Both the position numbers and the translations under genes were made by a program. From contig CAJFTY010000060.1 of assembly GCA_904420045.1 (NCBI GenBank), positions 1-64,000 of the forward strand: DNA of 64,000 nucleotides, read 5' to 3'. Of this stretch, positions 36,180 to 53,415 are shown piece by piece (the first letter of the stretch is position 1; every line of letters begins with the position of its first letter). The stretch comes from Candidatus Metaruminococcus caecorum (GTDB taxonomy: Bacteria > Bacillota > Clostridia > Oscillospirales > Ruminococcaceae). The notes under the pieces were generated by a model. The model had not been told where the DNA came from, did no database searches, and saw only the letters and a list, made by a program, of their open reading frames with translations.

Positions 36180-36232
36180 GTATTTTCATTCGCGCAGCAG
36201 CGACCTTACCTCAAATTTGCGCGTATCATGTC

Positions 36233-36269
36233 AAAAAAGCAGGCGTTGTTTTACAACGCCTGCTTTTTC
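36233..36269 (-). terminator. Rho-independent terminator of the serA transcript
   Basis: AAAAAGCAGGCGTTG-TTTTA-CAACGCCTGCTTTTT. Confidence 0.8.
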
Positions 36270-36295
36270 AATCACTTACACCATACGTTCTTTAT

Positions 36296-36318
36296 GGACT
36301 TTGGGACCCCAAAAGTCC
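36296..36318 (-). repeat. Repeat end module abutting the serA stop codon
   Basis: CCATACGTTCTTTATGGACTTTgGGACCCcaAAAGTCCTATTTATAA, near identical to 48205-48240. Confidence 0.55.
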
Positions 36319-36321
36319 TAT

Positions 36322-37488
36322 TTATAAGCTCCACACACGGATTATGCCGTCCGCAGCATTTAACTTGTCAATGGCCTCCTGGGAAACTGGCGCCGACACG
36401 TCCAGCATGGTGTACGCATAGTCCTTTTTGGACTGGTTAATCATGCTCTCAATATTGACGCCGTTGTCCGACATCGCCGTGGTGATCTGGGACACCATAG
36501 AAGGCATGTTCTTGTGGATGATGCACAGCCGGTTCTGGGTAGCGCGGGGCATAGAGGCCGCCGGCATGTTCACCGAGTTCTTGATGTTGCCATTTTCCAG
36601 AAAATCAATGACCTCCTGGGCAGCCATAAACGCGCAGTTATCCTCGCTTTCAGGGGTGGATGCGCCCAGATGAGGCAGCGCCACCACGCCGGGAGCACCG
36701 ATCATATCGTCGGTGGCAAAGTCGGTGACATAAGCACTCAGCTTGCCCTCTTCCAGCGCTTTGAGCACATCGGCGGGCACCGCCAGATCGCCCCGGGCGA
36801 AGTTTAAGATCCGCACGCCGGTTTTCATAGTGGCGATGGACTCAGAATTAATCATCCCCTTGGTCTCGGGGGTGGCGGGTACGTGAACCGTGATGTAGTC
36901 GCAGGATTCAAAAATCTCCTTTAAGCTGGTGGCATGTTTGACGTTGTGGGACAAATCCCACGCAGCATTGACCGACAGATAGGGGTCGTAACCGTACACC
37001 GTCATCCCCAGGTGAGAAGCGGCGTTGGCCACCAAAACGCCAATGGCGCCCAGGCCGATGACGCCCAGCTTTTTGCCGGAGATTTCCGGCCCTACAAACT
37101 GGCTTTTTCCTTTTTCCACCAGCTTGCTGACCTCGTCGCCCTTGCCCTTAAGGGTTTTCATCCAGTCCAGAGCCGGAGCAATTTTCCGAGAGGAAATCAA
37201 AAGGCCCAGCAGAACCAGTTCCTTCACGGCGTTGGCGTTGGCTCCGGGGGTGTTAAACACAACGATTCCCTGTTCGGCGCATTTGTCGCAGGGAATGTTG
37301 TTGACGCCTGCGCCCGCCCGGGCGATGGCCTTTAAGCTTTTGGGAAACTCCATTTCGTGCATGGAAGCAGAGCGCACCAAAATTGCATCGGGATTTTCAA
37401 TCTCGTCCCCGCAGGTGTATTTGTCCCGGCTGAACTGATCCAGCCCCGCGGGAGAAATTTTGTTAAGGGTTTTGATCTGAAACATCAT
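36322..37488 (-). CDS. serA: D-3-phosphoglycerate dehydrogenase
   Basis: KKLGVIGLGAIGVLVANAASHLGMTVYGYDPY, LNFARGDLAVPADVL, LPHLGASTPESEDNCAFMAAQEVIDFLENG; C-terminal ACT domain. Confidence 0.93.
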   Translation of the reverse strand: MMFQIKTLNKISPAGLDQFSRDKYTCGDEIENPDAILVRSASMHEMEFPKSLKAIARAGAGVNNIPCDKCAEQGIVVFNTPGANANAVKELVLLGLLISSRKIAPALDWMKTLKGKGDEVSKLVEKGKSQFVGPEISGKKLGVIGLGAIGVLVANAASHLGMTVYGYDPYLSVNAAWDLSHNVKHATSLKEIFESCDYITVHVPATPETKGMINSESIATMKTGVRILNFARGDLAVPADVLKALEEGKLSAYVTDFATDDMIGAPGVVALPHLGASTPESEDNCAFMAAQEVIDFLENGNIKNSVNMPAASMPRATQNRLCIIHKNMPSMVSQITTAMSDNGVNIESMINQSKKDYAYTMLDVSAPVSQEAIDKLNAADGIIRVWSL

Positions 37489-48007: not shown

Positions 48008-48035
48008 GCAAAAAGCCTCCTAACGGTTGCAGATC

Positions 48036-48343
48036 TCAAGTAGTAGCGCCGCTTTGCGGCAGTTGGTATGTTGTCTCATCAGCAATTTTCCCAATGGACT
48101 TTCGACCCGAAAGTCCTATGCACCGAGCGTAGGCAATGAAAATTCTGGCGCCGCTTTGCGGCGGTTGACACGTTGTGTCAACAAGAATTTTCCAAGAACG
48201 TATTCCATACGTTCTTTATGGACTTTTGGACCCGAAAGTATAACCTGCTTGCTTCCCCCTATGAAAATTGCGGTTTTGCGAAGCAAAAGATGAGACGTTG
48301 TCTCATCAGCAATTTTCCCAATGAACTTTCCGCGGGAAAGTTC
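48036..48343 (-). repeat. Structured repeat cluster between atpE and atpF: three 55-nt units (one decayed) plus 21-nt end hairpins
   Basis: Units 48036-48090 (decayed), 48138-48192, 48263-48317 with layout 9|GG|15|19|A|9; 21-nt hairpins at 48096-48116, 48195-48215, 48323-48343. Confidence 0.8.
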
Positions 48344-48346
48344 TAT

Positions 48347-49363
<1,017 letters not shown>

Positions 49364-52856: not shown

Positions 52857-53060
52857 AAGAAGTCCCCCATCGGTTGTAATAGAATTTGTCATGTATAAAA
52901 TCCAACCTTTTCCCGGACGTTTGCCCGGGCCTCCGGCCGGATGATGGTTTCTTATTTTCCTGTTTACGAAAAACGAGCTTGTGCCGCAGCGCCCGCTCGT
53001 AAAAGGATGGCGCCGCTTGTGCGGCGGACGGCGTTTCACGCCATCCATCCTTTTTGTACC

Positions 53061-53312
53061 TTTCCACGGGAAATCGCTTTACCGCGCCCCGGTGCTGAAA
53101 AATACCTGCCGGTACGGCGGGGATTTTTCCAATGGATTTTCATTCAGCTTCCCCATATGAAAATTGCGGTTTTGCGAAGCAAAAGATGAGACGTTGTCTC
53201 ATCAGCAATTTTACCAATGAACTTTCCGCGGGAAATAGCTTCACCGCGCCTCGGTGCTGAAAAATACCTGCCGGTACGGCGGGGATTTTTCCAATGGATT
53301 TTTTGAACCAAA
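53061..53312 (-). repeat. Second structured repeat cluster, upstream of dpaA
   Basis: Approx. 80-bp direct repeats at 53061-53140 and 53223-53302, flanking a 55-nt unit (53159-53213) nearly identical to 48263-48317. Confidence 0.8.
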
Positions 53313-53371
53313 AAATCCTATATCATCCTATGGCGTCCACGCCGGGTGGGTTCCACCTTTTTCGAAACGGC

Positions 53372-53415
53372 AAACGCCCCTCAAAGCCGGGTATTCCCGG
53401 CCCTGAGGGGCGTTT
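53372..53415 (-). terminator. Rho-independent terminator of the DUF1015 gene
   Basis: AAACGCCCCTCA...TGAGGGGCGTTT. Confidence 0.75.

Follow-up and report, generated by a model that had tools for sequence, protein, structure and literature searches.

Short repeats between the atpE and atpF genes of Candidatus Metaruminococcus caecorum fold into a three-way junction (3WJ) whose stems differ from copy to copy and stay paired. The question raised by this locus is what keeps them paired: selection on an RNA made there, selection on a single-stranded DNA (ssDNA) form, or the mutation process itself. The window analysed here is a stretch of 64,000 nt, which was compared with the rest of its own genome (G000; 2.23 Mb, draft, 92.5% complete) and with relatives.

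Covariation and copy number of the three-way junction

The earlier note had described two 55-nt copies, at 48138-48192 (copy A) and 48263-48317 (copy B), and both were confirmed letter for letter, with the layout 9-GG-(6-3-6)-(8-3-8)-A-9. Copies A, B and D gave RNA folding z values of -4.0 to -5.8 on each strand. The copy at 48036-48090 is decayed, as had been stated, with 22 of 32 pairs and z values of -2.5 and -1.4 on the two strands. The copy at 53159-53213 had been proposed, with A and B, as a seed for a covariance model; it lies in an 89-nt block (53147-53235) that is 98% identical to 48251-48339, and is therefore a recent duplicate that adds no independent covariation. A further well-paired 3WJ, at 53000-53055, had been missed. 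With a descriptor demanding strict pairing, an outer stem of at least 7 and two hairpins of at least 5, the matches in the window were copies A and B and 53160-53212 only, and its 10 dinucleotide shuffles contained no match. Across about 470 kb of the genome this descriptor picked out 16 distinct perfect copies, compared with none in shuffled sequence.

The genome-wide covariance search on which the earlier note had let its proposal depend was favourable. When the 2.23-Mb genome was searched with a covariance model built from 16 copies (R1, with a short calibration), 49 matches passed E<=1 and about 41 of these also passed E<=0.01; most of the matches lie in arrays. Since these 16 copies had been picked for pairing, which biases pair statistics, the model was rebuilt on the gene-sense strand and extended by the adjacent hairpin (R2), and pairs were counted on all matches, decayed ones too. 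Watson-Crick pairs accounted for 1396 of 1538 stem pairs (91%) in the own genome and for 1570 of 1792 (88%) in relatives. Among 24 hand-picked units, both partners vary in 28 of the 32 base pairs, the number of double-changed cells was 171 vs 53 ± 6 after shuffling, with slid registers nowhere near, and pairing stood at 94.2% vs 73.4% in shuffles. These data bear out the claim that pairing is kept despite the differences between stems. Rfam gave no match to the element at the gathering threshold and no convincing one at E<=1, phage, plasmid and viral-contig scans gave no match (the viral scan used one strict pattern), and literature searches on a hairpin-plus-3WJ architecture returned nothing relevant.

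Anatomy of the unit and its copies in the window

The 55-nt 3WJ is part of a larger unit, whose strand, second hairpin and anchoring at stop codons had escaped the earlier description. The readable form lies on the minus strand, as do the atp genes near 48 kb. On the gene-sense strand the unit measures about 100 nt (about 87-100) and consists of (A)TAG, hairpin A (GGACTTTTGG-GGT-CCAAAAGTCC and variants), a spacer (ATTGG, CTTGG or CTTAC), the 3WJ in the order P1, T, hp2, hp1, CC, P1', and a linker of ~17 nt, roughly A[T/G]NNCC..AGGCT, after which the next unit opens with its (A)TAG. The G of hairpin A is preceded by ATA, which makes ATAG, in 22 of 41 parsed units. Some units contain an extra hairpin B (AAGAACGTAT-GGA-ATACGTTCTT). 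The hairpins hp1 and hp2 are unlike in sequence and length, and the tips of P1 take many forms among units that share one hp1 sequence, indicating that the domains vary semi-independently. Units are grouped in arrays of 1-4 with a period near 102 nt.

Three minus-strand units fill the atpE-atpF gap. Unit 1 (48261-48347; R2 96.2 bits, E 1.2e-18) adjoins the atpE stop codon TAA (48347-48349), the anchor of the array, and comprises ATAG, hairpin A, ATTGG and the 3WJ of copy B, with 32 of 32 Watson-Crick pairs; its hairpin A (48323-48343) is GAACTTTCC-CGC-GGAAAGTTC, with the ATAG directly after the TAA as its foot. Unit 2 (48136-48218; 75.2 bits) contains the 3WJ of copy A and a hairpin B (48194-48216), and an imperfect hairpin A was found for it at 48220-48239. 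In unit 3, the most stop-distal (48034-48120; 55.8 bits), hairpin A is intact (48096-48116), the 3WJ is the decayed one at 48036-48090, and the end lies close to the atpF ribosome-binding site.

The second array of the window, at 53000-53330, is also on the minus strand. It includes a near-duplicate of unit 1 with a damaged hairpin A (53157-53243, containing the 3WJ at 53159-53213), a unit with the GC-rich 3WJ 53000-53055 (52998-53081; R1 46.9 bits, R2 43.7 bits) and a partial unit with hairpin A and a shortened second domain (53258-53322; R2 35.3 bits). A module of 81 nt, 95% identical, was observed at 53060-53140 and 53222-53302, one on each flank of the 53159 unit, which makes this array look like a mosaic or a tandem duplication of module plus unit. 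The array lies beyond a strong terminator-like hairpin (53372-53415). Elsewhere in the window, a minus-strand remnant (36231-36322; R2 33.8 bits) with ATAG, hairpin A and half of hairpin B sits between the stop of a serA-like, 3-phosphoglycerate-dehydrogenase-like ORF (36322-37488) and a terminator-like hairpin, AAAAAGCAGGCGTTG...CAACGCCTGCTTTTTT, and a weak, degraded unit was found on the plus strand at 2241-2309 (R2 31.6 bits).

Anchoring of the arrays at stop codons

Hand counting on the ORFs of the own genome placed the start of 17 of 20 arrays exactly at a stop codon, that of a gene on the same strand. The anchored arrays are those at 48036-48345 and 36231 in the window, two each in L040 and L034, and one each in L035, L046, L048, L031, L051, L041, L055, L060, L065, L066 and L068; the window array at 53000-53330 and those in L042 and L039 are not anchored. 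If any tolerated NTAG were a target, 9.3% would be expected on stops (66 of 710, the sites being stops and every NTAG outside genes; an approximate figure, with genes called by ORF length only), giving P of about 2.5e-15. Anchoring takes two forms. In one the TAG of the element is the stop codon itself (...GTA[TAG]GATTTT), and the element often supplies the TAG of the upstream gene in this way; in the other ATAG immediately follows the stop, as at atpE ([TAA]ATAGAACTTTC...).

The genes upstream were identified by Pfam as ATP synthase c, a GlgD-like protein, glutamine synthetase III, an alcohol-dehydrogenase-like protein, aconitase, GroES, HisE, EF-P, FtsX and RF1, and the anchoring genes, which include atpE, groES, efp, prfA, ftsX and aconitase, are ordinary housekeeping genes. 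The downstream gene, read from translations, is often the next in the operon (GroEL, AtpF, glycogen synthase, isocitrate dehydrogenase), with flanking pairs such as atpE/atpF, groES/groEL, glgD/glgA and aconitase/isocitrate dehydrogenase. Near the array after efp there is an FMN riboswitch (RF00050; L008 497-634, minus strand), and the ORF downstream of it resembles a riboflavin-type ECF transporter. The atpE-atpF gap filled by the array measures 339 nt, vs 14-82 nt in the eight relatives with both genes placed, indicating that the array is an addition.

Pairing also declines along the arrays. The unit farthest from the stop had the lowest score in 12 of 15 multi-unit arrays (permutation P=0.0018), and from the stop outward the atpE-atpF units have 32, 31 and 22 of 32 pairs Watson-Crick. 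This polarity fits growth of arrays at the stop side, although end truncation could mimic distal decay.

Distribution of the fold among relatives

The same fold, with other stem letters, recurs in other genera, in another family and in another order. These comparisons rest on one draft genome per species. Carriers were found in the same genus (G001) and the same family (G005, G034, G142, G219, G240, G012, G156 and G016), the family total being 17 of 301 genomes and 14 of 126 genera under filters that drop weak matches. The fold is also present in G660, from another family, and in G824, which shares only the class with the window's genome and thus belongs to another order; G824 has 24 copies and three congeners have none. 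The identical units within G824 arrays suggest tandem duplication in that genome. In G034, G005, G142, G660 and G824, the positions of P1, the junction T, hp1 and the YC ahead of P1' are unchanged, and hp2 is mostly GTC[stem]YYC. One G000 gene has an orthologue in G001 whose protein is 89% identical; the two loci share the stop-anchored first hairpin, and the later units differ.

Roughly 7 of 20 copies in G034 are stop-adjacent. In the promoter-type arrays of G824, as well as in G005 and G660, the sequence directly 5' of hairpin A is TAYAAT, often with an upstream TGN (about 9 of 12 in G005, 4 of 5 in G660, three arrays in G824). These -10-like motifs at the elements of G005, G660 and G824, which may be promoters of the elements, have no counterpart in the window's genome. 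G005, G660 and parts of G824 have TAYAAT where a stop codon would be expected, so the anchoring rule depends on the lineage.

Matches resembling the 3WJ in G256, G033, G038, G052 and G214 were left out of the membership on account of unconvincing context or score. Those of G256 (L101, L109) are identical copies with a similar fold adjoining a tRNA gene; they are possibly rRNA operon spacers, and the fold may be convergent. Repeats with periods of ~155-158 nt and a weak model match were seen in G142 (L268 and L269), and may be a further dialect of the 3WJ family.

Mismatch symmetry of the stems

Selection on RNA retains G-U pairs and rejects A-C. Mismatches were counted on the sense strand at the inner stem pairs of 107 distinct elements (49 from the own genome and 58 from relatives), with 2069 Watson-Crick, 48 G-T, 33 A-C and 158 other pairs as a result. 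Eleven tRNAs in the same data, used as control, had 215, 15 and 0 Watson-Crick, G-T and A-C pairs, respectively, so that the ratio of G-T to A-C differs between elements and tRNAs (48:33 vs 15:0; Fisher p=0.002). When helix ends were added for well-paired copies, the ratio was 63:59. A cis-acting structured RNA would tolerate G-U and avoid A-C on the transcribed strand, and the element, at 48 vs 33, does not show this behaviour; its G-T tilt is small (p=0.12) and would be compatible with weak RNA selection. These data are most simply read as pairing that is selected while the element is copied or moved, after which both strands decay alike. The earlier proposal of selection on a folded form is thus upheld in that the fold is kept, with the same architecture in other genera and in another order, and not as RNA selection locus by locus. 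Of the two forms that it had left open, RNA agrees poorly with the nearly strand-symmetric mismatches, and ssDNA that is copied and re-inserted fits better.

A structured 3' UTR RNA kept by the host is an unlikely source of the covariation. Such an RNA would slow terminating ribosomes or block 3'-to-5' exonucleases, allowing genes of an operon to differ in expression, for example the c-subunit gene atpE and atpF. The strong RNA folds agree with it, as does the orientation of the arrays, which are always sense to the upstream gene and lie mostly between co-directional genes, and E. coli REPs within 15 nt of the stop codon stall ribosomes (as cited in PMC12306157). However, the excess of G-U over A-C is unlike that of tRNA stems, atp operons of relatives lack the array, many copies are decayed, and copy numbers differ sharply among congeners. 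A mutational origin, in which template switching during replication copies one palindrome arm onto the other and perfects stems on both strands, would account for stems that are almost purely Watson-Crick, for their near strand symmetry and for hp1 loops in both orientations (AAA/TTT, TTC/GAA). We consider it quite improbable: the unpaired junction T, the CC ahead of the 3' arm and the spacer are conserved across genera and orders, as are domain order and stop-codon anchoring, distal units do lose pairing, and dispersal is left unexplained.

A proposed REP-like mobile element with a different fold

The reading that we favour, with a probability of roughly 0.55, is that the repeats are a non-autonomous REP-like mobile DNA element whose fold is needed for mobilisation, probably as ssDNA. 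It draws on the copy number, the constant unit layout, the covariation, the anchoring at stop codons of housekeeping genes, the low scores of stop-distal units and the near strand symmetry of mismatches; the patchy spread, the different units at an orthologous gene and the larger atpE-atpF gap speak indirectly for mobility. The lineage-dependent anchoring and the apparent tandem duplications in G824 count against it. The two-domain fold would most likely be the ssDNA form recognised by an enzyme supplied in trans. A copy would have to pair to remain mobile, and both sides of a stem would therefore change together while active lineages diverged. Entry of new units would take place at the (A)TAG of the stop codon and would bring or recreate TAG, leaving the upstream protein intact; arrays, with their oldest units stop-distal, would build up through repeated entry at one site, and copies would decay after insertion. 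No precise pair of empty and filled sites and no target duplication was seen among the genomes, one draft per species. The arrays lie within operon transcripts, and effects on mRNA are therefore possible, but secondary. The array may possibly separate atpE from atpF expression, and ribosome stalling at the stop or protection of atpE from exonucleases would be a plausible route to an effect on the atp transcript.

Among known systems, GTAG REPs come closest. Many of them contribute the TAG at which the preceding gene stops, and they are concentrated 3' of genes, where the neighbours are co-directional or convergent (PMC3733652); the present element is likewise a short palindromic intergenic repeat of high copy number, mostly 3' of genes, with an NTAG foot that is often the upstream TAG stop. 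REPs, however, are single palindromes of 20-50 nt with GTAG, and TnpA_REP reads the folded single strand with its tetranucleotide (PMC8266576), whereas this element is a hairpin plus a 3WJ, of ~100 nt, with ATAG and no detectable RAYT gene, and 17 of its 20 arrays are anchored exactly at a same-strand stop. The Y1 transposase domain (Y1_Tnp, PF01797) had no match in the 92.5% complete draft of G000, with controls working, nor in the carriers G005, G256, G012, G156 and G016, and 12 Y1 loci of relatives had no 3WJ element nearby. A RAYT/IS200 transposase was rejected as the mobiliser on these grounds. It is highly improbable that the element is a true GTAG-REP whose RAYT transposase was missed in or lost from the draft; the incompleteness of the genome and the supply of stops by the NTAG at the foot of hairpin A would allow it, but the motif is ATAG, REPs have no counterpart of the 3WJ domain, several carriers at least 97% complete lack PF01797, and the Y1 loci of relatives stand apart from the element. 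The absence of GTAG, the different and larger fold and the absence of Y1 together led us to propose a REP-like element with another, putative partner.

The element resembles REPINs, with their compensatory hairpin changes and possible clover fold (PMC3116915), in being miniature mobile DNA with such changes. A REPIN consists of two inverted copies of one REP; here, in contrast, hp1 and hp2 have no sequence relationship to each other, and they follow a separate hairpin A. Like MITEs derived from IS200/IS605, the element would use ssDNA hairpins beside a short target motif (PMC8266576), but no Y1 transposase was detected in the window's genome, and no insertion sequence with ends matching the element, or autonomous copy, was present among the loci examined. 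With Rfam structured RNA families it shares covarying stems, although it scores above no curated covariance model.

If the favoured reading is true, the REP/REPIN kind gains a new architecture and a new bacterial group; the text of a GTAG/CGTC survey (PMC3733652) nowhere mentions Firmicutes or Clostridia. The copies would then form a natural set of folded dialects, with shape kept and letters not, and a route to a shape-reading enzyme. Strong covariation alone would not prove a functional RNA, and the comparison of G-T with A-C, as a test of strand symmetry that helps to tell RNA from DNA, could be applied to other orphan covarying motifs. A more tentative proposal, which we regard as possible but doubtful, is a separate class of ssDNA-mobilised elements, spread within one bacterial class over at least two orders and several families. 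A putative enzyme would read hairpin plus 3WJ, and entry would occur at stop codons in some lineages and at -10-like TAYAAT motifs in others, with the motif restored and the host unharmed.

In G824, a 255-aa Y1-transposase-like gene (L307, C159, 948-2054) was found beside copies of a different repeat (TGTCATGGGGACGTGCCATTTTGACAC...) that has no relation to the 3WJ element; this gene and its repeat are possibly a separate REP/RAYT-like system.
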